This document shows, piece by piece, positions 15,553 through 51,923 of a stretch of DNA of 64,000 nt (position 1 is the first letter of the stretch; the number at the start of each line of letters is the position of its first letter). The DNA lies in assembly GCA_964035015.1 (NCBI GenBank), contig OZ035997.1:16103467-16167466 (forward strand), given 5' to 3'. Source of the stretch: Corallium rubrum (lineage: Eukaryota > Cnidaria > Anthozoa > Scleralcyonacea > Coralliidae). Made by a program: the position numbers and the translations under genes. Under the pieces are notes generated by a model. The model worked only from the letters and a program-made list of their open reading frames with translations. It had not been told where the DNA came from and searched no databases.

Positions 15553-15716
15553 ATTGTCAGTTTGCTGTACAAGCTGTGTTAGTTAGTAATACTCAGAAAA
15601 ACTCTGAGCTCTAAGCGGGACTCGAACCCACAACCTTCTGAATGCTAACCAGACGCTCTAACCATGGAGCCACTAGAACTCAGATAAACAAACTTGTACA
15701 GCAAACAACTGACAAT
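15553..15716. mobile_element. Foldback element with a tRNA-like core
   Basis: Outer arms ATTGTCAGTTTGCTGTACAAG and the complement (CTTGTACAGCAAACAACTGACAAT) enclose a tRNA-like sequence on the minus strand. It looks like a MITE that has captured, or evolved around, a tRNA-related SINE head. Confidence 0.75.
15608..15679 (-). ncRNA. tRNA-like sequence, complete cloverleaf, anticodon AGC position
   Basis: The minus strand folds by inspection into four arms: 7-bp acceptor GTTCTAG/TTAGAGC (with wobble pairs), D stem GCTC/GAGC, anticodon stem TCTGG/TCAGA with 7-nt loop TTAGCAT (AGC), and T stem GTGGG/CCCGC with loop TTCGAGT. A- and B-box promoters (GGTTCGAGTCC) are present. The sequence is unlike ordinary tRNA-Ala and sits within inverted repeats, so it is more likely a repeat-borne tRNA-like gene than a housekeeping tRNA. 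Confidence 0.6.
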
Positions 15717-24902: not shown

Positions 24903-25530
24903 GGTGGCTCCATACAGTTTCTAGAAAAATGGAAAATACAAGTTTGAGAGTCCAAAACACGTGCATAAACAATTCGGGAAAAGAATAAAACTAAATGTTA
25001 CCCATAGTTAAACATTCTGACAATCAAAACCTGTTTTCAATGACGTTTCAAAATGGCTGCCAATTACGCTTCAAATTAATTTAATTCGAAAGAAACTTTG
25101 GTGACCCCCCATTTTTTTTTCATTAAAACTTTTCTTGAAGTATACGTATGAGTAATCAATAGGCCGATTTTAAAAAATTCTGTAGATCCAATTTTTTTAA
25201 AATTAACAGACATGATTTTTTCGAGAAATAAATTATTCCTTCTACAGAATTTTTTTAAAATCGGCCCATTGATTACTCATACTTCAAAAAAAGTTTTCAT
25301 GAAAAAAAAAATTGGGGGTCACCAAAGTTTTTTTTCGAATTAAATTAGTTTGAAGGGTCATTGTTGCCATAGCAACAACTGTTGCTATTTATTTCGTAAC
25401 AGTTTTTGATTGTCATACTGTTTAACTATACATAACATTTAGTTTTATTCTTTTCCCGAATTGTTTATGCACGTGTTTTGGACTCTCAAAGTTGTATTTT
25501 CCATTTTTCAAGAAACTGTATGGAGCCACC
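24903..25530. mobile_element. MITE, GGTGGCTCCATACAG family, full copy
   Basis: The ends GGTGGCTCCATACAGTTTCT and its complement are followed inward by about 100 bp of inverted repeat (GTCCAAAACACGTGCATAAA and complement). Inside is a further inverted pair around AATCAATAGGCCGATTTTAA. The flanks are TAA on both sides, a 3-bp duplication compatible with PIF/Harbinger-type insertion (inference). A partial relative lies at 18,175-18,719. Confidence 0.82.
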
Positions 25531-25877
25531 TAAAACAGACCAGTGGTTCTAGTGTAGCGTCCAGCACAATGGGGACTTGTACTTAGTTTGTAGTCGAATG
25601 TACTGTAGTCGTGATTGTATAATTGACGTGTGATTATGTAAATAGCGTGAGCACTGTTGTGATACGGCAGTTGTTGTTGAGTTGTCGTCCAGTAAAGTAC
25701 ACCTTTTACAATCTGCCGTTGTGTCCTTTCTATCCCGGCTTGGGCGGCAATCAACACACTCAGGTTAACAACGAAACCTGCCTGAACATCGGCAAAACGT
25801 TACACTAGTTTCAGTTGAATTTATTTCTGGTCTTCTTCAGGTCGCTTTGACGAGCAGTCGCGTGTAGCTATATAATT

Positions 25878-26215: not shown

Positions 26216-28116
26216 ATGCAATTTCAGGGCAGAAAACTCCAACGGTGGAGAAGAGCACGAACTACGGCGTTAAATGATTTCGTGGTTAAGGATCTTAAAG
26301 AAGCTGCTATTGGCACAAAAGGAAGATATTCTCCAACAAGATCTGCAGATCCTCAGCCTGTCGGTTTGGTATTTCAAAAACCATTAGCCAATCATGTAAG
26401 AATAACTAGCTCAGTATTCCTAGAAAAAGCGCTAGTGATCTGCATCATGAGTGCAGTGTGTATAAAAGGTCTGTTCTATGGAAGGTATATAAAATGCAGC
26501 GAGTTATCGGTGCTGTAGTTATTGGGTACATCCTGGATTTCCTTACGTGAAGCTCATCGCCTGTTTTTAAGACAACGTTTCCATTGACTTATTTCTCCAA
26601 ATTTCATCAACACCGTCTGTGACAGATCACTGCATGTCTGTGCTATAGGTATTCAAACAAGGTATTGTCTGAAAAAAAAATGGTCACTTACGAACTGAGT
26701 GTTATTTGCCCGACAGCCTGAGTATTAATAGTTGGTTTGTACCAAGGAATGAATATACATTCTGAGTCTTCGTCGTGGGGTGAATACATCACCACACTCC
26801 TAGACTAAATTAAAAACAAGAAAGCGTAAGGTAAACGTATTCCCCAAATTTCTAATCCTATAACCGTATAATAGTTTACTGGTAACTGGCAAATGACATG
26901 CAGGGAACACACGTACGGTGTACATGTACAGGGATTACATATGAGCAAGAGCATACAGGTGACAGCGTAACTCGCGACTTGTCGAGCAGTCGAAATGACA
27001 TTTCTTTTCAGATGTCCTATACAAAAGACCAATTACTGTACTACACAAGGATTTTAGAAAACATAAAACTCTTTTCCGTTCAAGAGGAGTCTTGACTGTT
27101 GTCAATTCTTGGGCAAAAACATTAACAAAACCTTTTCGGAATGCAATTCTTTGACAAAACGTACTTCACTCCATTTTTTCCACTCATGCATTTCCACTAT
27201 TTCCGCCATTGCCTATTAAGAGGAATCAGGATGGGACTTAGACCATTACAACAATGACAAATCCGTATGACATAGACAACAAATAAATATATAGACAGTG
27301 CAATATAAATAATTTTTTGTACAAGCTGTATATAGAAAGGGTATATGTTAAGAACGTTTTTGTGAATGCTATATTGAAGTTAGAGATTTTTGTATCTACT
27401 GCGCATGCGCTAGTAGATACATTGCTGTCGTGCGTGTAAGTTAAGTTAAGTTAAGTTAAGTTAAGTTAAGTTAAGTTAAGTTAAGTTAAGTTAAGTTAAG
27501 TTAAGTTAAGTTAAGTTAAGTTAAGCTAAGTTAAGTTAAGTTAACAATAGAATAACTTCGGAGCCAATGAGAATGCAGGGTTAAACGACAATGTACCGAA
27601 TGTTAGCGGATGGGCACAACTTACCGAGTGATAGCGGAATACTGTAGATCTAGTCGTTTTCCGAAGTGATTTTAAATTATAGATGGCCAAGATGTCTTAG
27701 CTATAAGTTTATAGGATCTGACATGTCAACTGTACACTTGTAACATTAGTTAAAAGGCTATTCAGATTTCAGAAAGATCTTGATTCGAAGCCAAACAAGC
27801 ACTCGCTCTGTCTTTTCGTCCATGGAAAGCTTGTCGCTTGAGCGAGAAAGTCGAGGCGCGTGGTTTTATTTACGCGATGCTGAACTACTAAATTGAGAAT
27901 GTTGTTACAACTTGTACCGTAGCGCAGTAGATACATGCACGCTGAGCGTGCCTATCTATTTCTTAAAAATGCTCTCTACTAGCTAGACTGATATATATTT
28001 ACAATAATTTAAAGATGTGATAAGCAGGACCATATTATTAACCTTTCCACTAAATATAATTCCGCTTTCCAGATTAATCTCTTTCATGACCATCGGGTTT
28101 ATATGCAAATATCCAC

Positions 28117-28151
<35 letters not shown>

Positions 28152-28604
28152 CTACAGACGGTACCGTTTCGGCCTTTCGGGCCTCATCAGTGTAGTGCTG
28201 ATGAGCAGGATGAAGGTAACTGCTTATGAGTCACCTTTGATGCCTCACAAAATGTGGGACATCAAAACCATGCCAGGGCGCTCAAACTGCAAGCAGTGAG
28301 CGTGCGCACAATGCGTAAGCGGCAATGGCTCATCCTGTAGAGCGCTCAATATGACCTAACGGTCATAGAGCGATATCTAACTACAGACGGTACCGTTTCG
28401 GCCTTTCGGGCCTCATCAGTGTAGTGCTGATGAGCAGGATGAAGGTAACTGCTTATGAGTCACCTTTGATGCCTCACAAAATGTGGGACATCAAAACCAT
28501 GCCAGGGCGCTCAAACTGCAAGCAGTGAGCGTGCGCACAATGCGTAAGCGGCAATGGCTCATCCTGTAGAGCACTCAATATGACCTAACGGTCATAGAGC
28601 GATA

Positions 28605-28644
<40 letters not shown>

Positions 28645-31600
28645 GTGGTATTACATTATTTCTATTTTTTGACTGATCAGTGTTCCCTCTTCATTTTTTA
28701 TTACTCTTGTTGCAATATAGGCATATGCTATTTGGAATCCTGAGCCAGGCCGAAGAAAAACCCAAAGCAGATTTCCAATGCTTGCATCCCACATGAGTAT
28801 GAAATTATTCCATAGTTTTCTTTTAATGCTATCATTTATGCACATATTGCTTCCAATTTACCACTGTAGAAGTCTATTAATGTTCTAATAATGCTTTAGA
28901 AATGACAAATTTCAGCTGCGGAGAGCCATTAAAAGAATGTCCATGGGATCGTGAAGGTAACCAAGACCTATCAAATTAAACTTTTTATGTGTCGAATATA
29001 ATACAAATTTAGGTCTGCCTAGGTTATTGCATTCGATCTCTCGTTCAAACGTTGTATTTAATGTGGTTGAATAATGGGGCCGTCAGCACTTCAAGGCCAT
29101 GTCCACACTAATCCGTTTTCAAACGAAAACGGTTAAGACTTTCGTCCACACTAATCCGACGTCTTCGGTGACCCAAAATGGAACGTTTCGAAAACGGTCT
29201 CCAGAGTGGACACATCCGAAGACACCTATTTTCTGCACTGGGCGGACGGCGAAATCGAAGTTTTTCGAAAACGCTGACGTCACGACGATTATGTGATTTG
29301 GGTTCCAGTCACCCACGGCCTTTGTTCAGGGTCGTTTCAGCGTTTTAATGTGGATGGCAAAAACGATTCGAAAACGATAGTGTGGACGGAAAACTTTTGA
29401 TACGTTTTCGATACGCGAGGTCTCCATTTTCGTTTGAAAACGGATTAGTGTGGACCATTGAACTCTAAGTAAACTGGAACGATAACTCGATGGCGTATCA
29501 TGAAGCCAAAAATGGCGGACATGGGGGCCGCCATGCACGTCAATCCCAGTCCCTTTTACTTTATAGCCGAGAGAAAATGAAGCTGAATTTGGTGAACTGG
29601 GTTGCAAAAACAGCTTGAAATCAAACAAAAACTGAACTTGTTAACCACTTTTAGGCTTAAATCAAATTCCAATATACCGTAGAGTGGTGAACACTGACAT
29701 GACGAGTAAAAACAAGGAAAACAGCAAAAATATAAGCTCTCAAATGAAAGTCAACAATACGCAACCAAAATTGCCATTGGTTTGGACAAATATAAAGAAA
29801 ATACATATGAAACCCAGGTTTAAAATGAAGAGGTTGTTTATAAAAACAGTTGGCTTTTAAATTTCTCAATTTTCAGTAGGAAAAAACCCAACAAAATGCA
29901 CTTTACCGTGTGTTATTACAGCTCTGGAATTACTCTTCGTATCGAAAAATGTCAGATTTAGCATTTCCACAACTGAAACTTGAGTAAAGCTATAATTTAG
30001 CATTATCTTATTACTAATTCTTGGCAAGACAACCTTCAAACGTTTGAGATAACAAAGAAAAATAAGAGAAACCTGCATTTTCCGTACGAGTTTCGGAGTC
30101 GAATTTTGCTTTTGTTCGGCAGATATTTCGTCATTCAATCCATTTTCGTGTGTAGAAATTGTTCAGGTACAAGGCCAATAAGCTCAATACATACTATCTT
30201 CTTCGTTATCATCTAAGTAGATAACCCCCCCCCCCCCCCCATATACCGACGGAAGTAGTTAATATTCAGCGTGACTCACGCATGACTCACGCATGACTCA
30301 CGCCTGTGACATGATTGGGCAAGATTGGAATAATTATAGTATACATGAAGCTATATAAGCTCGGACATTACGATGTCAGCATTACACCTGGTCTGGTCAG
30401 CTAAGTTTGTTGGAGGAATCTACACTTGTTCGAGACTTTCGAGAGAGATTTTGTTGAAAGCATTAGAACTGAGACATGAATACTCGACGATCTAGAAACC
30501 GTAAATATGAAGCCTGGGGAAATAAAGTACATGTCGACGAAGTGTCCGTTGTCGAATACCAAAAGCTGTTTCCATTGATAGAGACCATATACACAGACGC
30601 CATCGCCACTGAAATCGAGAAATTATGCGAAGAAAACTGTTGTGGTTGTAAGATTGATCACCCCAGTCAGCGCCAGCATGATTGCCTCATGATGACCGAG
30701 GAAGAAAGATGGGAATTGTACTGCAAAGATGCCATTGCATTTGTAAACGATAAACGATTGATTTGGGACGAGTTTATTGAAGCGACAAGAGTACTGAAGA
30801 TCAGGTGTCATAAAGACGCTCTTGAACGTTTAAGACATTTAGAAAACACGTCAGAGTCCATATTGTATGCACTGTGGCAATTGTATAGTAATGCGGAGAA
30901 TCCAGAAATGAAATGTATTCTAGGATATCTTTCTTATTGGAGAGAAACTAATAAATGATTTTCTTGTATAAATGTTGTGTTTTGTCTTATTATGGCTAAT
31001 AATTGTAGATTTCAAAGCAAACCTTCGTTTATTCGTAGGAAGATAGAATGAAGAATCACTTCGAGAAATCGTGAAAAGAACGATTTTAAGTGTCGATATA
31101 TAAAGGCAAAGCAGTTTATTACTTTGAAAGCTACGCTTTCTGTTACTAAGTGTGATATTTGCATATTTATCCTCAGTGCCACGTGCAGGAGACAAAAGAA
31201 AAAACTCATTAGGGGTCATTAAGAGGATTAAGCGCTTAGGCAAGTCTAGGCGATGTCATTAGCAGTGTTACCATAGCGTCCTTCATTCGTCTCAGGCTCC
31301 TTTGGGACCCTCTACTATTACTCAGACCCCCGTGTAATACGTCATACACTGTTAAAAAAATTTCTGTTTTTTTACAGTAAAAAGTACTGGCAGCTTGGAC
31401 GCCAGAGAAAGTACTGTAAATTAACAGAAACTGTTAATTAAAAAATTACTGTATTTTTACAGTAAAATTACTGTTTATTTGTAAACAGACAAAATACTGT
31501 AATTCTACAGAACAGAAACTGTTCTTTCATAAGTTTCTGTAATTTCACAGAAAACATTGTTGTAGCAAAAACACCGCTCTTCAAAAGAGCGCTACTCTAC

Positions 31601-34600
31601 AAAAATCCTGTAGAATGTTTAGTGCATTTAATTATAAACAAACACATCACAGACAAATCTCGCATCAAGTTTAATAAAAACATATAAAACATAGGTTTTA
31701 TTAAAGCATTTATTATAACAGGGTTTATTATAAAAATAACATTTGCCCCTATATATATATATATATATATATATATTCGAATCAATACTTTAAAGCAAAT
31801 AAAACCATTCGAATCAATACTTTAAAGCAAATAAAACCATTGAGTCAGTAAATTGATATTTAACCATCACCACAGTACTGATGTTCTAAAATCACATGTG
31901 ACCAGATGGGAATTGCATTTGACCACATGTTATTTTGGAAGACCACATTGAATTTTTCAAGGGTGCACACTGTACCATCACAAATCGATGTTTTATCTTT
32001 TTTGTGATAACATGTAATTTCACATAATTGTAGCTGATGGGAGACAATCGCAATTAATCATTGTGGATGATGTGATGAAACCAAAAAGCATAGTACCAAA
32101 CATTTATATGTATCACTCAAATTAGCTTTATTTAAAACGTTTAAAATATTAATTGTGTCATTTGTCATAGGAATTGGGTTACAAACATGCCATTTGCGAA
32201 TAATTTTGCACTCTAGTTGACAAGAACAAAAACACCAGATCGAGGCTTTGTGCAAAGTTATGATGTTTTTATATTAAGCTTGATATGAAGCCTCGATCCT
32301 GTGTTCATGTTCTTGTCAACTGCAGCACAATTCGGAAAAGGCCTATTGCTTAGCTTTTTTCAGAATCCCTGTTTCCTCAGCTTTATAAAATGTTTTAAAT
32401 TCTGGTTTCAGTCCAGAAGATAATTCGGTCTCACAAAAACACATATAGCTTTCAACAACATTACAAAGTATAAAATATAAAATTGTTCTACTAACTTAAA
32501 CTTAAAAGCAACCTGTACTTGTATGCTTCATTCACTTTCAAAATCTTTCAAACAATTAACCAACAACACTCCATCCACTTTCAAAATCTTTCAAACAATT
32601 AACCAATGATAAAACTTTTGGGTTAACTTTGTGAGATTTTCCTTTGGTTTTTGTAGATTTGCTACCCTTTTCTGGATTAAGTTTCACAAAACACCTACAA
32701 AAAAACCCTCAAATTAACAAAAAAGAAATAAATTACAAATCAGTTTACAGTATGTGTCCCTTTGAGCATTGCTATATGTATAAAATAATCAAATCAAGTG
32801 GTTAGAATAGAACTGTATACCGTATGGCATAAATACCACTATTTACTACAATAACATACCTTTGAATAAACTCTAGAGTGGCTGCCGAACATTCTGGATA
32901 CTGTATGTTAAGACAGTAGGCTAATATGCTGCAAAAAGCACCATTACTGCCTCCAACATTGAGGTCAAAGATTTGTTAACAACAGCATGGTCAATTATAA
33001 TGGCAAATCTCTCAGTTACAAGTTTTTCACCTACAAAAATACAAAATACCACAATTAGCTGTTTTCTGGGGTTTTTCCACAATGTAATACAAGCAGACAT
33101 TTTTATTATTTTACTCTGGCAAATTCCAGACAACTGTATCAATAGTTGTTGTTAACTACACTACCTGCCCGTCTGTCTAGTTAAAAACTCATTCACTAAT
33201 TACCTAATAATTCGTGAGTTTTTAGCCTATTAAATCATTGATAATATGTCATGTGAAGCGACTTTATACCTGATAAAACACTCCTCATTAGTATTCTTTT
33301 TATAAAATCTTCTACTTAGTATTCTTTATATAGAGAATACTAATAAAGCCGTGTTTGAAGCTGTTCAATAAACTTGCAGTGCATGTTTTATTAGGTCTAA
33401 AACCACTTACTGTAAACCTAATAAAACACTCCTGCTCCTTTATTAAACAGTACTTATCCCTTTGACTACTGAAACAGTCACTCAAACGTATGGCAGACGA
33501 TTTGACTTGTCAAGGGAGAGCTCCAGTAGTGAAAGGCTTAAAAACTACCCCATTAAGCATTTGAACAATGTTACTTTTACAAGAGAGATCTCCAGTAATG
33601 AAAGTCCCCCCACACTCCATTTATTTGTCCTATTGGAAAGAACGTTGAAAATGGTTTTCGGTTCTTGATCTAATTTTCAAGATATTTCAATTTGTTATTC
33701 AAATGTCTGTAATCTACATCACACATGCATAAAGGACTTATCAAGAAATCATTTAAAAGTTAACTTTGTTGTTATAGGAGCCATGCCAGTCCAGTATAGA
33801 AAACTCTAATTGGCCTGGCTAGCCAGGCGCTCTACCAACTTAGGCTACTGAGCTACAGCTCAAGTTGGGAGCAGGTCTTGAAATTATGGTACTTATTTCA
33901 AGACCTAGAACACCGGACTAACAAACCGGAGTTTGTTGGGTTTGAGTCGCACCCAGGACAATTAGAGTTTTCTATACTGGACTGGCCAATATAGACCTAA
34001 TACCATATTATCATTCACCTGAGTTCACTGTCTCGTAATAATTGAATGCAAAGATATCCAGATAACATTCTGTCAAAGCTCATTATGCATGTGTGACATA
34101 GATTACAGACACTCGAATGACAAACAAATCAAAATATCTTAAAAACCAGGCAGAGACAAACATGTAGAAAAGGGTTACATTATCATTTTAATAATCTGAT
34201 TACTAAAATGTGCAAATCTCTGAGTAGTGACATTTATGGGCAGCATCGTATGAACGCGCAAACTGATTAGTAATTTACTGTTTTCATAACAAGATAAAAT
34301 TTGTATTTTCAAACCAACATATAATTGTGATTTTTTTCACAGAATGATCAACAAGTAATGTATGAGATGAAACAGTGAAAAGTGATAAACTGCCAATAGT
34401 GTGATGTTTTATGCTGACGTTTCGAGTGAAGGCCCTTCATCAGAGCCTTCGCTCAAAACGTCAGCATAAAACATCACACTATTGGCAGTTTATCACTTTT
34501 CGCTGTTTCATCTTGTATTTTAAACTGCTCACGCAGCACTAAAACTTTTTGAACAAGTAATGTAGTTTGATATTCTTACCAAATAGAGCAATAAAAGGAC

Positions 34601-37600
34601 AGTCTGGACAATTCACCAAGGCATCATTAACTGTTTCACTTTCCTAAAAAATAAAAAATATAACTCAATGACAAGTTAATACACCCTATTGTTTTTGTAT
34701 CTCTAATAGTCTCAGAATAAACATAAGCACTTCGCTCACACTCACCGCACATCGTAAGACTTTTTCACTCATGCAAGAAAGTATTACTGTCGTGGCAATA
34801 GAAGCGTTCCTAAAATAATTGTGCAGTTGTATTCCTCACGTTGAACAATTCATTTGATGAAAATATCGCTAAACTTCCTGTTCTGAATTCTGTTTTGAAT
34901 TTGATTGGTGTTTCGCAAATAATCCTTTCTCTTATTGGTTATTCAAAAACCAGGAACCAATCAAATTCAAAACAGAAAGTTTAGCAATAATAAACAGGAA
35001 GTTCATCAAATCAATTGATCAATTTGAACAAATGAATTGCACAATTATTTTAGGAACGCTTCTATTGCCACGACAGTAAACACATTAGATATTTGTCTTA
35101 CATGCCACAAACGAGAAATGTGACTGCAAATGGGAGCTATCCCCTTAACCCTTTAATGCCCAGAAGAAGTTCTCCTACGGGCGAGTAAAATCATCTGGAA
35201 TTAGCCAGAGTAAAATCTGTAAAGTCCAGTTGGGCATTAAAGGGTTAAACAATCGACCATAAATGAAATTTTGCTATGATACATGTAGGTCTCAAACTCA
35301 CTAGGCTTAAACAAAAACAAATATTACTTACATCAAAAAATCTTATCATATTATCCTCTTCTTCATCAAAATAGGCAAGAAGTAGAAGACAGACACCAGC
35401 CATTATAGCAGCTTTACTCTCTTGCAATGCCATGGTATCTTCAATGAGTTTGATTGACTGTTTCACTTTCTTTTTGGACACTTCCTGCTTCATGTAATCA
35501 TAAATTACACTTGACTTCTGCTCAACAGTTTTTTGAAAGACAGCTTGAAGCTGAAACCCCATTAGCTCTTCAAAATGCTGCAGCAAATAATCTTTACAAA
35601 ATAGAAATGGCCACAACTCTTTAATTTCGTTAATTGTAGGTGGCATAGGTTTCTGTCTGTTGATAAGTAGTCGTTGGGAGGTATATGTTTGCTTCATAAG
35701 AAGTTTGACCTTGGGTTTATCTACAACATCTTTTGGATGCTCTCTAATTAGCCACTGCTGTTTCTCTTTCTGCGTTTCGTCATTTTCATTTTCAGGAAAG
35801 GCATCTGGTTGCCAGTTGACACATCCATAAGAATCGCTAACAGGTTTCTTCATTTTGGCAGGTGGCTCAGAATTTCCATCATCTGCAGCCAATTTTGCAA
35901 GAATGGAGCTTGATTTGGATTTCTTCCTACTAAGATTGAATAATCTTTCCTCCAATTGTTTACGGAGAGATTCATACCCTGTACCAACAACAGTATCCCC
36001 TACAATGTCACAAAATGACTCTTTGTACTTAGTTACAACCATATTTGCAATTTTTGACAAGTTTTCCCTTCCAGGTAGAGTTGAGTGGTTTCTTATACTA
36101 TCACATAAGATTCGCACCATTTCGCATCGATCACGTGGCTTTGGTCTAACTTTTCGTTCACACGCATCAATTAGAGATTGCGGCATTTTAGACCATGGAA
36201 TTTCAAATTGCTGAACCCAGTATCCATGCTGCAACTTATCAGTTTTCTTGGTACTGCTACATGTATCTGGACTTGTTGTTGGAGTATCCATGTCACTCAA
36301 AGTTGATGGAGTACTACAGCGTGAAGAACATGGGGAGTCGAAGCTGTCTCCACCATAGGCATAGGTTGCTTCGCTGGAGCTGTCAGTGGAAAGGTGTGGT
36401 GACTTATTGGTTTGGGCATCGTTATCTTAAATAAAGAATCATCATATTACCACTTAAGTGTGGTTCTGTAACAACTATCTTCAATTTTTTCAATATAGTA
36501 ACCCTACTTTATCATTGGTTTACCCATTTTTGAAATAGCTCCAGTTTTAGATGACACTACTTTTGAGTTTTGACAAATAAAAAAGTCTAAATTTGATTAC
36601 ATTCAGTCCAAACAGTCCATTAAGTCCAAACAGTACATTCTATTTTTGTACATGGTGGAATATAAATTAGTTTAGTATATATTAGAACTTTATGAAGTAC
36701 TTGAACTGGATCTCATTTCAAAGTTGCATAATCAATGAAGTTAATAGATGAGGTTTACAGTAAAATATAGCAAGGGCCCTGCAATAACATTTTCATTTAA
36801 GTAATTATAGTATTAATTGAAATTACTTAAAATTGTCGAAGCCAAACAAACTCGATCAGATGATTATGATGATTAAGAACACTTCACCTAGTTTGAGTTT
36901 TCCTGTAATAGCACAAAGAAACCCCATGGCACACAACTCACAAGTGGTTGTCAAAAATAATTATCTGAGCAAAAATGCATTTGCTAAAATACATAACCAT
37001 TATTGTGGGATAATCTAGTCCATACAAGATAAAGTTGTAAACATTATAAAAATAATTTTAATGTAATTTCAATTTCTGTTTTGTCATTAAAGATTGAGTG
37101 TCAAGGTACAGTAATGCATTGCACACTTGTGTTATTGTTTACAATCCAGTATTAGTCTAGTGCTAGGGCTTATTTAACAACAAATAACCATAAAAATATT
37201 TTGCACGGTTTACTTGTCATATAAATATGTATCGTAAAAATAAACATACTTAACATGTTGAAAATATCCAAGGGATTATAAAATAAACTTCTCAGTTACT
37301 TGGTCTATAAAATGAGCCCACAAAGCATTGGCTTGACACCCATCCTCTAAAATCCCAATTTTTCCAATATGAGCAGTCTGTAGTTTTGCACCAAACAAAA
37401 CAGTCAAACAATATTAAAATATCAAATGAAGGCAATGAAAACACATTCCAAGTTGAAATCTTCCCATGTGTAACAAAAATTATTTTAGAAAATCCTTTGT
37501 TTTCTGGCGCACTTTTGCTTGCATAAAGACAGAAAGTATATCTGACTATTTTCAAAATTTCTATTGTTAGAGAAATGTCATTGCAGTTCCTTTATAATAT

Positions 37601-40600
37601 ATTGTGCAGTACATGTTTTACACCTTAGTAATAATTTAACAAAGTAGCTAAATTAATGTTGAGTATTACTGCACAATAATTATATTTTCACTTAAGTTTT
37701 GGAAAGTAACATACAATATGTTGTTTTACATTTTAATAGACTGAAACAAACCTTTAACACTTCGCTGTAATTTCCGGATCTGTATAGGTTTCAGAATACC
37801 AGCAAGATCTGCTTCTTCTAACAATGTTAGATCGTCAAGGTCTGATACCCCAATATCAATTAACTTTTCCAATGTGTTTTTTAACACATTATCTCTTAAA
37901 TTAGGAAATAAATTTTGAAGAAAATCTTCAACTTTTTCCATTGCTTTCCAATAGGTTTTCCTGGAAAAATATGAACATGAGACATAATCTAATATATCAA
38001 ACAAAGATCCCCATTTTAGCTATGTATTTAAATATTTAGAGATTTCTTAATTGTCATTATACTTTTATTATACATCCACACTTGCATATTTAAGCACAAT
38101 TATCTCTTTATTATTTCTGGTGTAGGAGGGTAAAGGACTGTAAGACTTTAAAGCAGTAAAATCAAAGCACTCATAGATTGGTTGAGCAACATTCAATAAC
38201 TGGTAAAAACCCATTTCCGGCTTAAATTCTGCTTCTACTTTTTTCATTAGAAAGCAGACCTGACAAGTTTGTGTATGCTGAAAAAGCATCACAATTTTTC
38301 CGAAAATAATCCCAGCTTGGGTGGATTCAATTGCAACATAATCATCTTTTTTATACTTGCTACCACGAACAATACCGCTAAGGGATGTAACCACATATTC
38401 TGGTGACTGAGAAATATTGTGGTTCTCAAATGCATCCTTAACACAATCACTATACAGCTCTACATTAAATGGAATTGAATCTTGGAAATACACACTACTT
38501 TCAAAAAGTGACCCATTGCTGTAATATGCTTGCAAAAGTTGGTGATGTTCAACAAAAGTGTGACAAATGTTAATGAAATTCTGGCTATAACGAGCACATT
38601 TCTTAAAGTATGAATGCTTACTTTCAAAGCGAAGTGTCCATACTCTCATCAAGGGTCCAAATTGCAATATATGCCTTGGATAATGAGCAAGATAATGATG
38701 TTTGGGTCTTAAAGGTGTTTCAGGAAATAGACTTGCACGAAGATCTAAATATTCTTCTATTTTGACTCTTAAATAGGCAACCTGGCCCATTGTTATCTTG
38801 GGAGCACATACAAGTTCAACAATTTCTCTTAGCAAAAGTATTGCTCCCCACACTTCATCACTAGTATCTTGTATTTTTGAACAAATTAAAAGTGGGAGAA
38901 GCCGAAGGAGACACCAGTTTTGAACTGCATGCCCACCTAATCTCTTCCCTTTGTCATTTAAAATGTTTGGTTTATCATTAGCATCACTTCCTTTGTACTT
39001 AAACTTGATTATTTCTTGGTTGAAACAAGAATACGTAAACCACTTTTTTACCTTAACAAAATGGTTAAGAAACAATACCAAATCATATTGCACTACACCT
39101 TCAAAAAGATCATGGCCAAGGCAAGGGGGTAAACCAGGATTGCACACATGATAATAGCGTAGCTCGTTAAAAATAGAGTTGAATTTTACACCTTGATAAT
39201 GGGTTAATTCTGTATTGTTTTCAGCAATCTCACATGCATCATTGTAACTCCTAGGTGTTCGTTCAGGATAAATATCCAATACTGAGCCAGATTTAATTTC
39301 ATCAGATGTTACTACACAAAATCGACACACATGTGAACAGCTACTAAAATTCTCTGTAAAACCACCTATACAATGGCTGCCCAAGTTATCACCCATAAAC
39401 ATTGCTACAGTTCCTTGAACATGCTCATCGCCGACACATACACCTGTTTCTTCAATCTCTTTGAGATCATTGACAAGTTCTCGGAATACAATATGCTGAC
39501 CAAAGTATTCAAAATCAACTTCTCTTACAAGCAGAACAAGCTGCATTGGATCAACCTTCGAGCGATTTTCAGGGTGAATATTACCTAAGGTGACATAAAC
39601 TGCTAAAACCTTGTGCTTTTTTTTTGCTGACCCTAATGGATTGACAACCTCAAAAGAATCTTGGTAGAGCAAAAGTTTTAAAGCATTGGGTACTGTTTGA
39701 AATAACAAATTACTTTTTATCACACTGCCATCACTAATGTCCTGTAGAATTCCTTCTTGAGAAGCGTAAGGGTTATGAAACTGCTCTTTCACACTGGCAT
39801 CTTTTAAAAAAGCTTCAATTGTCTTAGTTATAGGGACATATTGACAACATCTTTTAACATTTTCCTTATCAAAACCCAGACATATCGCAACTGGTGCCAC
39901 ATACCTGAAGTTGTCACGGTAGTATTGTTTTCGCCTATAATCTGTACTTAATGGACCTCTTTGATTATGTATGTCATTAAACATGTCATTACTTAAAATT
40001 TCTTCAGTTATTTCAGTGATTACACTTTCAGAAACAGAGTTTTCCTTCAATTTTCTGCTGACACACTTTTTTAAATAATTTTGAGAGACACATTATGCAT
40101 TGTCTGCATCTCTTCAATCACCATTTGTATCGTACTGGCAGGCATATGGTATTTTGAATTAAGTTTTAAATAAAATAAGGCTAAATTTTTGAGAAACAAC
40201 TCTCTGTCAGTTTCAACATTATCACTATCATCATTTATATCCATATCCCAACCATCAAAATTCAAATCATCCAAATTATTGCCAGATGACATGTCTGTTC
40301 CTTGAGCATTATTATCGAAGTAATTACGATCACCACCTACTACCAAATCTGGTAAAACATTTCTAGTAGTGGTTTCCTTATGGCGCCTACTTAAATGAGA
40401 AGAAAACGAGGACTTGACACGGTATTTTAAACCACATCCTTGAAAAGGGCATGTAATTTCATTGCCTTGCGTTATGTGACTCTTTAAATGTTGAAGTAAA
40501 TCGTCTACGTTTTGAATAAGTTTGGCACAAAAATCAAATGGGCATTGCATGCTAACAACAGTCTCGCCTAGATTTACTAAAGTCTTTTGCCTGTTCGAGT

Positions 40601-43600
40601 GATTTATATGGTCCCGTGTCACATGAGATTTGAAGGCAGTGTAAGTACGAAAAAACCTCTTACAATCCTGGAAAGCACAGGGAAATTTAACATTTGCTTC
40701 GTTTGAATGCATCGCATAATGTCGAACATATGTTCGTAAAGACCCAGTTCTGTGTATACAGGATTTACATGAATACATAATAGAAAGTATTTACCTTATA
40801 AAACTAACATACAAAAGATAATTAACATAATATGTACCTAAACTTATGAATCCTATTGCCACAAATAAACAATATGCCACTGATGCCACTTTTCCAAAGA
40901 CAAAGACTCCAAAGACAGACTCCAACCAAAGATAAAGGTTCCTCGTGGTCGTGGTCAAATGAAAATGGCGGTTGAAATTGAGTCCCATGAAACATTGCGG
41001 CCGCATGAAAGCTATCCCACCATGCCTCGAAGTCAGACTGAGGAACAAACTTCAAATCGGCAAATGCTTCGAAATCAGTCCATAGACATAGTATATTATC
41101 ATCATTTAGACATCATTATCGAATTTGCTGATTAAATTTTGTAACATTTAAGTAAAAACCTGTTTTAAGACATCTGGTGACCAAAATTAATTACGAACTA
41201 CCACGATATAGTCAATAGTGTCCAGTGTCCAGTAATACAGTATCATTTATTATAGTCTATACAGTTAACGTTACTGCTAATATTCACACAAAAACAAAAC
41301 CTGTTCCTGATAGAAGGTAATAATTACGGGAACCACTGAGTATTTTTATTAAATACAAAGCAACGGTAAATCCGAATATTGTACGTTTCGACTAAGTTTT
41401 AATTTAGTGGTCTTCCTGCGTTTCGACCAAGCATTTAATTAATAGTAATAAATGTATGTTTACAATATTCGGAGTTGCAATTTGTGTTTACAAGGTAACA
41501 CTAACAGAGTTTCAATTAACAGTAGTTTACTGTAAAATTGATTTACAATAAACTTACTGTTAAAAATTACTGTACACTCTGCTGTAAAAAAACATATTTT
41601 ACTGTAAAACAACTTTACAGTATCGTTACTGTTAAATTTTACAGTACTTTTTTCTGTAAAAAAACAGAAATTTTTAACAGTGTAACCGATAGCTCTCCGA
41701 TTAATTCCCGAAGTTCCAAATGTTTGACAAACGGTGTCTTTCATGTGTGGGGTCTCTGGAGTATACACCTCCTATTTTAAGTCTTTAGGCATTATGAGAA
41801 TATTTCGTTTGTATTCTTTCAATGACTTGGTGGCTCTTAAAAGCTTGTAATTTTTAAAATGTGATTTGTTTAAAGAAACATGTTTTTATAATAAGACTAA
41901 ATAACGAAATAAAGTTTCAAAAATATATAATTTCATATTTACCATCACACAAAGCTCCTAATATTTACAAACAACGCAAAAGTTAAAATCCATAAGTATC
42001 GGAATTATTTACAATCACTCGCTATCTATTACGGTTGTATATCCAATATATGTTAAATATCTCACAGTGTACATAAAAATCCATTACCTGTCAGTAGGAC
42101 AAAGTGAATAAATCAAAATTGATTACTAATACTTAGATTGAGGAGATGTCTTTGGGAGTCCAAAACCGTTGTGTGAACACGGAACGGTTTGCCGTACTCG
42201 TAAGTCAAACGAGAAGTCGCGCGAGTATGAGGAATCGAATCGAGAAACTGTAAGAACGTAAGATACAGACGAAATATTATTTGTCTATGGAATGGTTGAG
42301 TGCAATGTTGCCAATATTTGTCTAAGTCCATGTACACTAATGATGTTAATGGCTCATTAGCAATTTAAACAAAAGAACGAGTCTGGGCGAGTCTGAGCGA
42401 CGTCAGAGCTTAGACAAAGAAATCCTAATTAATATGCTTATTCACGGCGTCGGTTTTCTCGGCGTATCATTTGCTTACTATTTGCTGTTGGAGTAAGACC
42501 GCAGAGATGGAGGGTTTATATGAAAAATTGTTTTCAATGTTCGAAGCTATTTACAATGAAACTTTGTGGGAAGAATATTCGAAGCTTTGTCGTGAAAAGT
42601 GCAATGGTTGTAGGACCAACCATCCTAGTCAGAAACAACATAGTTGCCTAACAGATGATGAGCAACGGAGATGGTGCTACGAAGAGACCAGGACAAACGT
42701 CGACGAACGAATCTGGATAGAGTTCAACGAAGCGGGAGAGGCGTTGAAATTACGAAATCAAAGAGACTCTCAAAAAACTTCAGAGACAATTGTCGAGCCG
42801 AAGGAAATTGACGACTCGCCAAATATTCTTTCTATATCTGTTCTGTTTAGCTGTCCATTAAAGTATCTGTACGAAGTGAAAGACACTGGTGTAAAATTTA
42901 CGAGTATGATAAAGAATCCTCGGGAGGCTTACGAGGAGTACCTTCTTGAAAAGTCTAGAAACTTAACGACGAAAAGCAATCTGAACTAATGCTATATGTG
43001 TTGTGAGAACATTATCGAGTTAATCCAAAGTTAAATTATGTTTTAAATTTAAAAAAAAATTTACTTGGACTATATAGTGTGTAAGAAAGATGTGTAATTT
43101 TATACGTGTGTAATTTTATCTGAAGAAAAATTCATAAAGACATACGAGCAATATTATAATAGTTCTTTGTAGTTTATTTTCATATTTATAACAAATTACA
43201 GTGTGCATATTGACAGCTAATTATTTACATAAACTGTCCTGCGTTTACGATTTCTTCTAGCGCACCCACTTCTTAGAGATATCGTTTGTTTCTCTGTTGT
43301 CAAAGCACTGCTCGCTCTTTATAGGGAATTTTGATATTTTCCGTTTTTTGCGTTGTTTATTATTTACGGACTCCCCATGCTGTTCTCTTAGATAATTATT
43401 GAAGTTTGTTGCCATTTCCTCTTGTCTCGTTATAATGCTTTTCAAAGTTTTCTCCATATTTAGTTCTGTGCTGTCTGCGATAGTTTCTTTACTCTGTAAA
43501 GGAACACATATTCCAATTTTACTCCATTTTAGCCATTTAGCGCGTTCTTTGATATCCATGTGATGTACTTGATCAAGATGATTTGCTAGCCTTGTAAGAT

Positions 43601-46600
43601 TAGTGCTTCCGCAACCGAAGACAGGACAGTTTCTACGTGTGCGACCCATGTTTAGTTGTTTACTCGAGCAATGACAGAAAGCATTTGACATTTTTTGGCA
43701 TGTTAGGTGCTTTTATTAGGCCCTTTTAGGCCCTACTTGGCCTTTTCTGGCCCGTTTAGGCCTTTTGGCCCGTTCAAAGATACCCCCTCCCCCCATCACC
43801 CTCGGGGCACCCCCAAAGATACTACCAATACCCCTGGGGTGCCCCCAAAGATATCCCCATCACCCCTGTTCCAAAGGAATATCAGAAAGACATATACATT
43901 ATTTGTAAATACTTTATTGAACTTCAGCATAGTACAGAAGATAATGTTTCAACGATTCAACAGTAACTTTAATTCTTATATTTGGTTTCATTCCAGTACT
44001 ATGGCGTTTAGATTGATTGTAGCAGTACACTAGTTTTTTTTGTAATACTGGTTTCTTTCGTTTGATGAAATCTAAACATATATTCAAAATACACCGTCCT
44101 ATATAGCCTTTAATAAACCATTATCAGTATGTCTCAATGTCGCTTTTCTCAGGTATTGAGCACTTATTTTTATACCCTGGGTTGATATACATAATGTGTA
44201 TCAGTCGGAAATATTCCGGATCTTACTCGGATTTCATCGGGACATGTCGGCGTGAGATCGACAAACAGGTAAGAATACGGCTCTTTGGTTGCCATCTGGT
44301 AGGCTTGCTGGAAAAACTTTGTGTTGTCTGGATACAACTGTTTAGCAAGATGAGTCACTTGACTTGCATCACGAACATTTTTTGTTAGGACAAAATAACT
44401 AGCGTTGAGAGAGATGGTGCGATGGTCTTTGCTTTGATGAAATAAGTTTTGCACAATATAAATCACGCTGAGATTACCATGGTGCGATTTCTTCGTGAAC
44501 AGTTTGGCAATAATCGTATCTTTTTCTCCCATCATATCATCAATGATAAATAGATTTCTTATTTGGGGATTAATACTATCCAATATAGATTCGGATAAAC
44601 CTTGCACAAACTGAATCCCAGGAATAAGAAGTTCCATTTTAGCAAACGTGTCTTGGTACTCAGAATAAAAATAAATTATATTTTCTGGGACAGGGTCGAT
44701 CATGATTTTGGCGTTGGCTAACAATTCCTTGACAAATGTTGTCTTCCCAGTCTTGGTCCCCCCTGAGACCAAGAGCCCAAACGGATGTGTTAATTGTATG
44801 GAGTATGTCTTTTTGTTGTCTTGGTAATTCGATGCGGTTCCATCAAATGGCGAATGCTGAAATGTAGAATCAGTAGACATCGTTTGTATTGGCCGATCTC
44901 CCCCATGCAGGACCTTTATGTGGCGTTGTAAATTAAATTGTCTTGAAAAGCTCTTTCCGCAAATATTACAAGCGCTAGGCATGTTCACACAACAACTCTC
45001 AAATTACTTGTGAAAATGTCCAGGAGAAAAGTACGATTATATCCTTGAGTTTCTTCTCTAATGCATGTGGGATATCAAAACGAACCAATGCACAGCTGAA
45101 CGTCACTTGGACGTTACTTAGACGCCGCCTCTAAAGGATTAACCCATGAGTAAATGAGTAACTCACGAGTTACTCATGATTAAATGAGTAACTCACGAGT
45201 TACTCATGAGTAAATGAGTAACTCACGAGTTACTCATGAGTAAATGAGTAACTCACGAGTTACTCATGAGTAAATGAGTAACTCACGAGTTACTCATGAG
45301 TAAATGAGTAACTCACGAGTTACTCATGAGTAAATGAGTAACTCACGAGTTACTCATGAGTAAATGAGTAACTCACGAGTTACTCATGATTAAATGAGTA
45401 ACTCACGAGTTACTCATGATTAAATGAGTAACTCACGAGTTACTCATGAGTAAATGAGTAACTCATGAGTTACTCATTTACTCATTTACTCATGAGTTGC
45501 TCATTTACTCATGAGTAACTCACGAGTTGCTCATTTACTCATGAGTAACTCATGAGTTACTCATTTACTCATGAGTAACTCGTGAGTTACTCATTTACTC
45601 ATGAGTAACTCGTGAGTTACTCATTTACTCATGAGTAACTCGTGAGTTACTCATTTACTCATGAGTAACTCGTGAGTTACTCATTTAATCATGAGTAACT
45701 CGTGAGTTACTCATTTACTCATGGGTTAATCCTTTAGAGGCGGCGTCTAAGTAACGTCCAAGTGACGTTCAGCTGTGCATTGGTTCGTTTTGATATCCCA
45801 CATGCATTAGAGAAGAAACTCAAGGATATAATCGTACTTTTCTCCTGGACATTTTCACAAGTAATTTGAGAGTTGTTGTGTGAACATGCCTAGCGCTTGT
45901 AATATTTGCGGAAAGAGCTTTTCAAGACAATTTAATTTACAACGCCACATAAAGGTCCTGCATGGGGGAGATCGGCCAATACAAACGATGTCTACTGATT
46001 CTACATTTCAGCATTCGCCATTTGATGGAACCGCATCGAATTACCAAGACAACAAAAAGACATACTCCATACAATTAACACATCCGTTTGGGCTCTTGGT
46101 CTCAGGGGGACCAAGACTGGGAAGACAACATTTGTCAAGGAATTGTTAGCCAACGCCAAAATCATGATCGACCCTGTCCCAGAAAATATAATTTATTTTT
46201 ATTCTGAGTACCAAGACACGTTTGCTAAAATGGAACTTCTTATTCCTGGGATTCAGTTTGTGCAAGGTTTATCCGAATCTATATTGGATAGTATTAATCC
46301 CCAAATAAGAAATCTATTTATCATTGATGATATGATGGGAGAAAAAGATACGATTATTGCCAAACTGTTCACGAAGAAATCGCACCATGGTAATCTCAGC
46401 GTGATTTATATTGTGCAAAACTTATTTCATCAAAGCAAAGACCATCGCACCATCTCTCTCAACGCTAGTTATTTTGTCCTAACAAAAAATGTTCGTGATG
46501 CAAGTCAAGTGACTCATCTTGCTAAACAGTTGTATCCAGACAACATAAAGTTTTTCCAGCACGCCTACCAGATGGCAACCAAAGAGCCGTATTCTTACCT

Positions 46601-49600
46601 GTTTGTCGATCGACATGTCCCGATGAAATCCGAGTAAGATCCGGAATATTTCCGACTGATACACATTATGTATATCAACCCAGGGTATAAAAATAAGTGC
46701 TCAATACCTGAGAAAAGCGACATTGAGACATACTGATAATGGTTTATTAAAGGCTATATAGGACGGTGTATTTTGAATATATGTTTAGATTTCATCAAAC
46801 GAAAGAAACCAGTATTACAAAAAAACTAGTGTACTGCTACAATCAATCTAAACGCCATAGTACTGGAATGAAACCAAATATAAGAATTAAAGTTACTGTT
46901 GAATCGTTGAAACATTATCTTCTGTACTATGCTGAAGTTCAATAAAGTATTTACAAATAATGTATATGTCTTTCTGATATTCCTTTGGTACAGGGGTGAT
47001 GGGGATATCTTTGGGGGCACCCCAGGGGTATTGGTAGTATCTTTGGGGGTGCCCCGAGGGTGATGGGGGGAGGGGGTATCTTTGAACGGGCCAAAAGGCC
47101 TAAACGGGCCAGAAAAGGCCAAGTAGGGCCTAAAAGGGCCTAATAAAAGCACCTAACATGCCAAAAAATGTCAAATGCTTTCTGTCATTGCTCGAGTAAA
47201 CAACTAAACATGGGTCGCACACATAGAAACTGTCCTGTCTTCGGTTGCGGAAGCACTAATCTTACAAGGCTAGCAAATCATCTTGATCAAGTACATCACA
47301 TGGATATCAAAGAACGCGCTAAATGGCTAAAATGGAGTAAAATTGGAATATGTGTTCCTTTACAGAGTAAAGAAACTATCGCAGACAGCACAGAACTAAA
47401 TATGGAGAAAACTTTGAAAAGCATTATAACGAGACAAGAGGAAATGGCAACAAACTTCAATAATTATCTAAGAGAACAGCATGGGGAGTCCGTAAATAAT
47501 AAACAACGCAAAAAACGGAAAATATCAAAATTCCCTATAAAGAGCGAGCAGTGCTTTGACAACAGAGAAACAAACGATATCTCTAAGAAGTGGGTGCGCT
47601 AGAAGAAATCGTAAACGCAGGACAGTTTATGTAAATAATTAGCTGTCAATATGCACACTGTAATTTGTTATAAATATGAAAATAAACTACAAAGAACTAT
47701 TATAATATTGCTCGTATGTCTTTATGAATTTTTCTTCAGATAAAATTACACACGTATAAAATTACACATCTTTCTTACACACTATATAGTCCAAGTAATT
47801 TTTTTTTTTTAAACTTAAAACATAATTTAACTTTGGATTAACTCGATAATGTTCTCACAACACATATAGCATTAGTTCAGATTGCTTTTCGTCGTTAAGT
47901 TTCTAGACTTTTCAAGAAGGTACTCCTCGTAAGCCTCCCGAGGATTCTTTATCATACTCGTAAATTTTACACCAGTGTCTTTCACTTCGTACAGATACTT
48001 TAATGGACAGCTAAACAGAACAGATATAGAAAGAATATTTGGCGAGTCGTCAATTTCCTTCGGCTCGACAATTGTCTCTGAAGTTTTTTGAGAGTCTCTT
48101 TGATTTCGTAATTTCAACGCCTCTCCCGCTTCGTTGAACTCTATCCAGATTCGTTCGTCGACGTTTGTCCTGGTCTCTTCGTAGCACCATCTCCGTTGCT
48201 CATCATCTGTTAGGCAACTATGTTGTTTCTGACTAGGATGGTTGGTCCTACAACCATTGCACTTTTCACGACAAAGCTTCGAATATTCTTCCCACAAAGT
48301 TTCATTGTAAATAGCTTCGAACATTGAAAACAATTTTTCATATAAACCCTCCATCTCTGCGGTCTTACTCCAACAGCAAATAGTAAGCAAATGATACGCC
48401 GAGAAAACCGACGCCGTGAATAAGCATATTAATTAGGATTTCTTTGTCTAAGCTCTGACGTCGCTCAGACTCGCCCAGACTCGTTCTTTTGTTTAAATTG
48501 CTAATGAGCCATTAACATCATTAGTGTACATGGACTTAGACAAATATTGGCAACATTGCACTCAACCATTCCATAGACAAATAATAATATTTCGTCTGTA
48601 TCTTACGTTCTTACAGTTTCTCGATTCGATTCCTCATACTCGCGCGACTTCTCGTTTGACTTACGAGTACGGCAAACCGTTCCGTGTTCACACAACGGTT
48701 TTGGACTCCCAAAGACATCTCCTCAATCTAAGTATTAGTAATCAATTTTGATTTATTCACTTTGTCCTACTGACAGGTAATGGATTTTTATGTACACTGT
48801 GAGATATTTAACATATATTGGATATACAACCGTAATAGATAGCGAGTGATTGTAAATAATTCCGATACTTATGGATTTTAACTTTTGCGTTGTTTGTAAA
48901 TATTAGGAGCTTTGTGTGATGGTAAATATGAAATTATATATTTTTGAAACTTTATTTCGTTATTTAGTCTTATTATAAAAACATGTTTCTTTAAACAAAT
49001 CACATTTTAAAAATTACAAGCTTTTAAGAGCCACCAAGTCATTGAAAGAATACAAACGAAATATTCTCATAATGCCTAAAGACTTAAAATAGGAGGTGTA
49101 TACTCCAGAGACCCCACACATGAAAGACACCGTTTGTCAAACATTTGGAACTTCGGGAATTAATCGGAGAGCTATCGGTTATGACGTATTACACGGGGGT
49201 CTGAGTAATAGTAGAGGGTCCCAAAGGAGCCTGAGACGAATGAAGGACGCTATGGTAACACTGCTAATGACATCGCCTAGACTTGCCTAAGCGCTTAATC
49301 CTCTTAATGACCCCTAATGAGTTTTTTCTTTTGTCTCCTGCACGTGGCACTGAGGATAAATATGCAAATATCACACTTAGTAACAGAAAGCGTAGCAACG
49401 CTTTCAAAGTAATAAACTGCTTTGCCTTTATATATCGACACTTAAAATCGTTCTTTTCACGATTTCTCGAAGTGATTCTTCATTCTATCTTCCTACGAAT
49501 AAACGAAGGTTTGCTTTGAAATCTACAATTATTAGCCATAATAAGACAAAACACAACATTTATACAAGAAAATCATTTATTAGTTTCTCTCCAATAAGAA

Positions 49601-51923
49601 AGATATCCTAGAATACATTTCATTTCTGGATTCTCCGCATTACTATACAATTGCCACAGTGCATACAATATGGACTCTGACGTGTTTTCTAAATGTCTTA
49701 AACGTTCAAGAGCGTCTTTATGACACCTGATCTTCAGTACTCTTGTCGCTTCAATAAACTCGTCCCAAATCAATCGTTTATCGTTTACAAATGCAATGGC
49801 ATCTTTGCAGTACAATTCCCATCTTTCTTCCTCGGTCATCATGAGGCAATCATGCTGGCGCTGACTGGGGTGATCAATCTTACAACCACAACAGTTTTCT
49901 TCGCATAATTTCTCGATTTCAGTGGCGATGGCGTCTGTGTATATGGTCTCTATCAATGGAAACAGCTTTTGGTATTCGACAACGGACACTTCGTCGACAT
50001 GTACTTTATTTCCCCAGGCTTCATATTTACGGTTTCTAGATCGTCGAGTATTCATGTCTCAGTTCTAATGCTTTCAACAAAATCTCTCTCGAAAGTCTCG
50101 AACAAGTGTAGATTCCTCCAACAAACTTAGCTGACCAGACCAGGTGTAATGCTGACATCGTAATGTCCGAGCTTATATAGCTTCATGTATACTATAATTA
50201 TTCCAATCTTGCCCAATCATGTCACAGGCGTGAGTCATGCGTGAGTCATGCGTGAGTCACGCTGAATATTAACTACTTCCGTCGGTATATGGGGGGGGGG
50301 GGGTTATCTACTCATCTATAAAAAAACTTTAAGCCTAAAAAATGGTTGTTTTTTGCAGCGAGTTTTCAGTTTTTCATTGTACGTGCCCCTCATAGGTTCT
50401 GTTGACGTCAGACGTGCAATGGCGACCCCCAGCGGCCGGAAGTTTGACTTCACCCAATCATAGGGCCTTTCTTATGGAGTTAGCGTTCCAGTTTATTTAG
50501 AGTTCAATGGTGTGGACCAACTTACAATAAGGCAACAACGAAAGAGTCAAACATGACAAGTTATGAAATATCGCTTATTATTATATAGATGCGAGTGTTT
50601 TATTAGAAAACATGCAGTGTCGTATTTTCCATATCCTCACTAGCGAAGATATCGATGACGTCATTAAGAATTTTACCTCTTTTTGCATTGAATCTATATA
50701 ATAAAAAGAAAATTACACGCTGGCTTGAAGATATGAATTTTATCTTCTCGTGGTAAAAACGATATATAAAATCCATATCTTCGCACCACCGTGTAATATC
50801 CTTTATGTATATTCATAGTACTTGAAGATTAATTTCGGGTTGGCAAGGTTTCTGAGTGGTTTAAATCACCTAACCCAATTAAAAACCCTAAGCCTAATCA
50901 CTAACCGAGCATGGCAACGAATTGGTAATTGTAATCTGATTGGTTGCTTATAGCCAATCAGAAAACACGTTCATATTAGGTACTGTGGGTCTTTGCCGTT
51001 CATTCATGATACAAAACCGGAAGGCGAAAAATGTTGCAGTATATACTACATGTAGATACATGCACTGCACTAAAACACCATAATTCTACAATATATTACC
51101 CATTTATAATAATTTATTATATAAAATAGAGTGTTTTATTGATGTTTCCGCCACTAATAAAAACGATAATCTCACATGTGTGATTATTTATGATAATCTC
51201 ACATGTGTCGATTATCATGAAACACATTAGAGTATACTTCTCTATTTTTGTGGGGCAATAGGCTTATTTTTTTATATAGTAAACAGAACAATACATGGAT
51301 GCGCGGGAATACGAGTGAGCAAAGCGAACGAGTGAGATATCCTGGTCAACACGAGAAATAAATGTTATTATTCTCTATATAAGATTCACTCTGAATGACT
51401 TTCCCTCGAAACGTCATGCATACTTCGTAATTAAAATAAAATAGCTTCTTAAACATACTCATTAATTATATATACCGTTTTCTTTATACTGGAAGTAAAA
51501 CCCCCGCAGATTCATTACAGTTTGGAATCAACTTCGCGGTCTAGCTACCGACATCCTTCTGTTCATCCAGAATGGATTCGGCCTCCGAAATCGTTAAAGA
51601 AAGGAATATCAGAAGAATACGCAGCACAAGGGATAGGTAAATATATGATCGCATAGATATCAATGCTAGACAGCGTATCGTGTCCATATATGATTCAGCT
51701 CTGAAGACGTCCTGAGTCTTAAGGACAAAAACTCAGCTAATAAAAATGTTCAAATATACATAATATATCTGTAAACTTTCTATCTAAATTGAAATATCTC
51801 GAAAACGAAGAAAAATACGGAAAAGATGCAAAAGGTCTTCTTTACAATTTCACAAGTTCTTTCAAATTAGACAAACTTAATTTATATTTCAAAGTCTCTT
51901 TAACGCTTTCATTCATCTCTTTC

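Follow-up and report, generated by a model that had tools for sequence, protein, structure and literature searches.

Palindromes of one genome end are known from protein-primed linear replicons, as in the left-end inverted duplications of defective adenoviruses and the hairpin or dimer derivatives of yeast killer plasmids; to our knowledge, they have been described as by-products and not as a family of genomic transposons. Fold-back transposons also consist mostly of inverted repeat, and they are without Polinton ends or genes. Here we describe a palindromic insertion of Polinton/Maverick type in a 64,000-nt stretch of the genome of the cnidarian Corallium rubrum (assembly GCA_964035015.1, contig OZ035997.1, positions 16,103,467 to 16,167,466), hereafter called the window, in which the insertion occupies positions 30216-50312. 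Vertebrate Mavericks are described (PMC8097293) as having 6-bp target-site duplications, terminal repeats 46-1447 bp long and ends of the form (AGT)2 or (AG)3; according to the same source, Polintons are thought to be integrated viruses, and Maverick virions have not been observed. The element shares with Polintons/Mavericks the 6-bp target duplication, the AGT-type ends, the inverted terminal repeats and the packaging ATPase (PMC8097293, PMC6431247, PMC4028283), whereas it differs from them in that the open reading frames (ORFs) scanned gave no recognisable polymerase, integrase or protease, and in that its entire content is present twice, head to head. Its terminal repeats, of 4.6 kb, are about three times the longest vertebrate Maverick figure that this source gives (1447 bp; PMC8097293).

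The closest documented parallel is found in the snap-back genomes of adeno-associated virus (AAV), which, as reported in PMC8235507, carry either parent end and are packaged. Like our element, they are self-complementary and have genes on both arms, and they derive from one parent end (PMC8235507), as our element may. AAV, however, is a parvovirus, for which the authors propose end joining (PMC8235507), whereas we presume a protein-primed parent for our element, which is inserted in the genome in many copies. By title or abstract opening, no paper on palindromic Polintons was found among the matches listed, most subscription journals being outside the scope of that search, and the element apparently represents a non-autonomous Polinton family of new architecture, all inverted repeat and helper-dependent. 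The explanation that we favour, with moderate confidence, is that of a large palindromic, non-autonomous, helper-dependent Polinton family which was formed, and probably re-formed, by snap-back in protein-primed replication.

A preliminary description of the locus, made from the sequence alone, had recognised a Polinton-type insertion by its AGT...ACT ends and an exact 6-bp CATCTA duplication, and both were confirmed. The interval is 20,097 bp long, its inverted ends read AGTAGATAACC... at 30216 and ...GGTTATCTACT at 50312, and the CATCTA copies at 30210-30215 and 50313-50318 match over six bases and not longer. Hence the window has an AGT-type motif on inverted ends and a 6-bp target-site duplication, which are the marks of a Polinton/Maverick insertion, and it also has the A32/FtsK-like packaging ATPase expected of one. 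In a self-comparison, the two halves were inverted copies over their full extent; the symmetry ends exactly at the element ends, and the flanking DNA is unlike on the two sides. While the end-to-end inversion of the arms stands as described, the length of 4.88 kb given for them holds only with half of the central satellite added, the arms measuring 4591 bp (left) and 4586 bp (right), or 4.59 kb each. Likewise, both ends of the element were correctly placed, but the element itself is about 9.8 kb and not 20 kb in length, the remainder being a nested CACTA-like transposon. The alignment of the two arms, 4576 positions long, contains 6 substitutions and 8 indels, several of these differences being homopolymer indels. 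Precisely, there were no substitutions and 2 gaps in the outer 1128 aligned bp and 6 substitutions and 6 gaps in the inner 3448 aligned bp (Fisher p 0.35, uninformative).

The nested transposon is separate from the palindrome and present in the left arm only, where its 10,336 bp (31347-41682) make up half of the interval. It has inverted ends CACTGTTAAA...TTTAACAGTG (CACTG...CAGTG) and a TA duplication (31345-31346 and 41683-41684), its empty target site is readable in the right arm, and it is younger than the palindrome. It contains ORFs of 638, 348 and 235 amino acids (aa) plus a weak SAM-domain-like piece, and the 638-aa ORF had no Pfam match. Judging from the end sequences, we take it to be probably a CACTA/EnSpm-type element.

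As the preliminary description had proposed, we searched the genome assembly (474,352,983 bases in 312 contigs) with one arm, looking for other copies, their ends and their duplications. The right arm gave at least 52 matches, mostly inverted pairs enclosing the centre; since 31 of 2208 candidates were scored, the counts are lower bounds. The DNA was read for 13 paired sites and for 7 further sites. Twelve of the 13 paired palindromes have their own perfect 6-bp duplication, all distinct from that of the window and from one another, whereas in a control in which ends were paired across different copies there was no perfect 6-bp duplication in 144 pairings; the end motif used in this test was defined after inspecting the ends of the copies. 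At many sites a complete palindrome lies between 6-bp duplications, and the one in the window is real and one of dozens in the genome.

Beside the duplications, the 12 copies end in ...TAT(C/T)ACTACT or ...TTATCTACT. The AGTAGA ends belong to the window and to the copies C20 and C8_7.08, and the other 10 of the 12 copies with both ends have (AGT)2, which at the outer end appears as ACTACT. In each of the 12, one end matches the other; the thirteenth palindrome (C1_82.6) has no recognisable right end. Most copies share the inner 3771 bp of the window at 95-98% identity and have a different outer module, without ORF A. The usual order with both arms was also present at three of the 7 further sites (C270, C8 at 6.07 Mb and C25); for C28, the stretch read ends before the centre, and the ATPase pair is present. 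The outer 0.8 kb of the window element, the end with ORF A, had 40 near-full matches, two of them in the window itself. Elsewhere in the genome there were 10 end-out pairs of these matches spanning 4.2-9.6 kb, one of which is the C20 palindrome and nine of which span 4.2-8.3 kb, and two pairs spanned 12.8 and 37 kb. Some of the end-out pairs may be further palindromes.

One copy (C258:53572-63618) is inside out: its arms run inwards and meet at the outer modules, and a short outer end and a satellite lie at either extreme. Read outwards, the two ends have the sequence GGGTTATCTACT, and AACCCC stands on either side of the copy as a perfect 6-bp duplication. The two end pieces measure 711 bp (717 alignment columns) and share 99.0% identity; they are composed of end, outer-module and satellite sequence. 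Both outer ends derive from the same side, and the turn point differs from that of the other copies. We read this arrangement as a copy that may have lost most of one arm and then regained its palindromic form at a different point. Among our observations it speaks most strongly for repeated palindrome formation, and it stands alone.

The centre of the window palindrome is a 0.58-kb satellite of 30-bp tandem units which turn round near 45475, with 11 units one way and about 8 in reverse. One 330-nt half of it folds at -103 kcal/mol, against a mean of -36 for shuffled sequences (z -17). Satellite-like sequence was present in the centres checked among the other copies.

From the end inwards, the genes of each arm are ORF A and ORF B, both pointing in, followed by ORF C and a C2H2-finger/A32-like ATPase gene, which point out from the centre; ORF A and ORF B are paralogues (42% over 103 aa). 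Each arm thus has the same gene set, as claimed before, but the ATPase frame is open in the left arm and broken by indels in the right one, though open copies occur elsewhere. The window ATPase matches Pox_A32 with an E-value of 4e-4, just short of Pfam's cut-off, and its close homologues carry PF04665 (for instance P0010, at 87%). Relatives found by protein search numbered 266 for the ATPase, 41 for the ORF A/B alignment and 84 for ORF C. The predicted structure of ORF A is all-helical (mean predicted local distance difference test, pLDDT, 84), and its structural comparison gave no convincing match.

The Pfam scan covered the 4 left-arm genes, the 3 larger ORFs of the nested insert and 12 right-arm pieces (not all of the 41 stop-to-stop pieces). 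In these ORFs of the window, no protein-primed polymerase B, RVE-type integrase or cysteine protease was recognised. There was no Pfam match to a jelly-roll capsid in them either; capsids diverge fast, Pfam alone cannot exclude them, and no fold-based search was made. The earlier statement that the element has no polymerase, integrase, protease or capsid gene is hence borne out for the first three in the ORFs scanned, whereas for the capsid Pfam is not decisive. The combination of a polymerase and an integrase gene inside the insertion, which had been named as the finding that would speak against a helper-dependent element, did not turn up in the same ORFs.

For the ratio of non-synonymous to synonymous differences per site (pN/pS) we considered 18 full-length open ATPase frames, window included, with both arms for some copies. 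The mean pN/pS was 0.13, and the ATPases of the main group differ from that of the window by 15-17 synonymous and 4-6 non-synonymous changes; on these frames, the ATPase looks selected, in the purifying sense. For ORF B, the values were 0-0.48 excluding C20, and 0.12-0.28 in the main group. The other palindromes with their own duplications and this purifying selection agree with the proposal, already made in the preliminary description, of a distinct, helper-dependent palindromic class that kept the packaging ATPase, and such a class is probably what we have here.

Within a copy, the arms differ at 0-8 of the roughly 1900 sites of a 1.9-kb fragment, and the median difference between arms of different copies is 0.90%. 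In the tree of this fragment every one of the 13 copies has its two arms as sisters, the weakest support being 0.17 for C22 and 0.75 for the window, and the partner arm is strictly the nearest for 24 of 26 arms. The within-copy differences sum to 37, whereas none of 10,000 random pairings gave a sum below 129, and private sites numbered 42 in both arms of a copy versus 29 in one arm. By all these comparisons, the two arms of each copy evolve together. The private changes found on both sides, together with the matching outer modules, argue that both arms are regularly made from a single one.

In the search for the ATPase we scored the best 142 of 1749 candidates, of which 130 had no internal stops. 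Group 1 comprises 117 loci at 81-100% identity, and 80 of them make at least 40 divergent pairs, 446-2678 bp apart, with no convergent or tandem pairs within 6 kb. The 37 unpaired ones include palindromes with a broken second ATPase, such as that of the window, and also the ATPases of C258, which are convergent at 6.7 kb. Group 2 comprises 25 ATPases at 77-79%: 19 stand singly, and the others form 2 divergent pairs and 1 convergent pair. Nine of the 19 single loci have a DNA_pol_B_2 match at a distance of 3.0-3.6 kb. No group-1 ATPase was found within 8 kb of a polymerase (33 of the 199 polymerase matches were compared). The elements of group 2 that adjoin protein-primed polymerase genes are a likely helper. 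Four inverted, facing polymerase pairs, 6.3-7.8 kb apart (G000 C1:17.72 Mb, C20:2.81 Mb, C25:0.67 Mb and C49:8.48 Mb), may be separate palindromes from the polymerase-bearing part of the parent.

Two observations on ATPase relatives elsewhere are reported here for completeness. A contig of a bacterial bin (L014:1-3352) carries a Polinton-type ATPase (40%), along with a homologue of the TATA-binding protein (E 6.6e-38) and a gene akin to the C-terminal part of P0060; it is likely a viral or mobile-element contig placed in the wrong bin. On two contigs of 39,955 and 40,130 bp there are seemingly two ATPase copies each (P0065/P0092 and P0069/P0086), 90-91% identical within and 95-96% between, possibly an older duplicated or palindromic locus.

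For the formation of the palindromes we propose the following steps. The polymerase and the integrase would act in trans, supplied by relatives within this genome that have a polymerase beside a related ATPase. During replication, a displaced single strand ending in or near a self-complementary stretch would fold back and prime its own copying; the self-complementary satellite is a plausible turn site for copies of the window type, and another turn would have been used in C258. The product would have two identical protein-primed ends and be integrated by the helper integrase; the 6-bp duplications show that an integrase-like activity joined both palindrome ends to the target. A one-arm hairpin stage would probably recur during the spread of the family, because both arms share the private changes of each copy. 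This suggests that a one-armed, folded DNA form belongs to the multiplication of these transposons. A stronger version, in which a virus-like transposon lineage replicates as one protein-capped arm with a hairpin turn and the inserted palindrome is a dimer re-made from that single arm, would account for changes and new outer modules that arise simultaneously on the two sides, and we hold it only tentatively, at less than even chances.

Several points weigh against formation by snap-back. The parent with ORF A, ORF B and ORF C was not seen whole in the genome copies examined, and an integrase was not mapped in the genome, no search aimed at it having been made. The satellite orientations are mixed in 14 of the 15 stretches adjoining arms (one of the stretches lies beside a one-armed copy), so that the other copies do not generally share the clean turn of the window. 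Two copies (C8 at 11.2 Mb and C1 at 71.4 Mb) are one-armed, with no duplication found; ORF C is open and full-length in few copies only; and the ATPase pairs were drawn from the best-scoring 142 of 1749 candidates. Moreover, the concerted arms are equally to be expected from gene conversion after insertion, and one genome cannot separate the two.

The last point is the substance of the most serious rival, in which the family is real and mobile and its arms are kept alike by chromosomal gene conversion, the process at work in other large palindromes. Conversion works well between long arms separated by less than about 1 kb, and it accounts for the sister arms and the shared private changes equally well. 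In the window, however, only one arm has the nested insert and only one has the ATPase breaks, which means that conversion has not passed over these places since they arose, and turn points such as that of C258 are left unexplained; we consider conversion as the whole explanation rather unlikely. More improbable, in our opinion, is an origin as ordinary internal-deletion derivatives by growth of the terminal inverted repeats over the entire element, as in the fold-back type, with no link to protein priming. The nine end-out pairs of 4.2-8.3 kb mentioned above, known by their matches to the outer 0.8 kb, would suit such growth, as would the long terminal repeats known in Mavericks (46-1447 bp in vertebrates, PMC8097293), but whole genes on both sides and a turn inside a self-complementary satellite in the window are not explained by it. 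That the assembler folded one arm over is hardly credible: homopolymer indels among the arm differences are typical of sequencing error, but the unlike flanks, the exact duplication, the one-arm nested insert and the recurrence at 12 sites with different duplications contradict it.

A further possibility, compatible with snap-back formation, is a packaged satellite, in which the diverged ATPase, and perhaps the satellite repeat, would steer helper capsids to the palindrome. The ATPase is intact (in 130 of the 142 best matches, as judged by internal stops) and selected while the polymerase and the integrase are missing, and its relatives at 77-79% adjoin a polymerase; yet no capsid gene was recognised in the ORFs scanned and other roles of the ATPase are possible, so we regard packaging as conceivable rather than probable. 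This high-copy fold-back family is a genomic record of how Polinton DNA possibly replicates and of parasites living on Polintons, and the concerted arms offer a sequence-based test of a hairpin replication stage versus gene conversion. More speculatively, transcripts crossing the centre would make kilobase hairpins, which could feed RNA silencing against the helper.

Table 1. Features of the palindromic element in the window.
Feature	Positions	Strand	Remarks
Left 6-bp target-site duplication	30210-30215	.	CATCTA
Left arm, outer part	30216-31346	+	element end AGTAGATAACC
ORF A, left	30476-30958	+	160 aa, CxGCxxDHPSQxxHDCLM family
Nested later insertion, outside the palindrome	31347-41682	.	CACTG...CAGTG ends, TA duplication
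638-aa ORF	38068-39984	-	probable transposase (inferred)
Left arm, inner part	41685-45144	+
ORF B, left	42507-42989	+	160 aa, ORF A paralogue
ORF C, left	43257-43691	-	144 aa, zinc-finger-like N-terminus judged by eye
C2H2 finger + A32/FtsK-like packaging ATPase, left	44170-44982	-	270 aa, open frame
Central satellite, 11 units of 30 bp	45145-45474	+
Central satellite, about 8 reverse units	45475-45726	-	turn-round near 45475
Right arm	45727-50312	-	mirror of left arm
ATPase, right	45886-46637	+	frame broken by indels
ORF C, right	47168-47602	+
ORF B, right	47872-48354	-
ORF A, right	49573-50055	-
Right 6-bp target-site duplication	50313-50318	.	CATCTA

Outside the element, the window holds an inverted Penelope-like pair (54383-55725 and 56166-57508; RVT_1, weak GIY-YIG), whose members are 99.4% identical and 440 bp apart, and BEL/Pao-like remnants at 8483-8908 and 9319-9918 (DUF5641, weak Integrase_H2C2). 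A tRNA-Ala (AGC) gene is on the minus strand at 15606-15679. Among the repeats, we observed a TTTTGTG repeat (1-682), an 82% fold-back (24898-25535), a TAAGT repeat (27437-27544) and a 229-bp tandem duplication (28144-28609).

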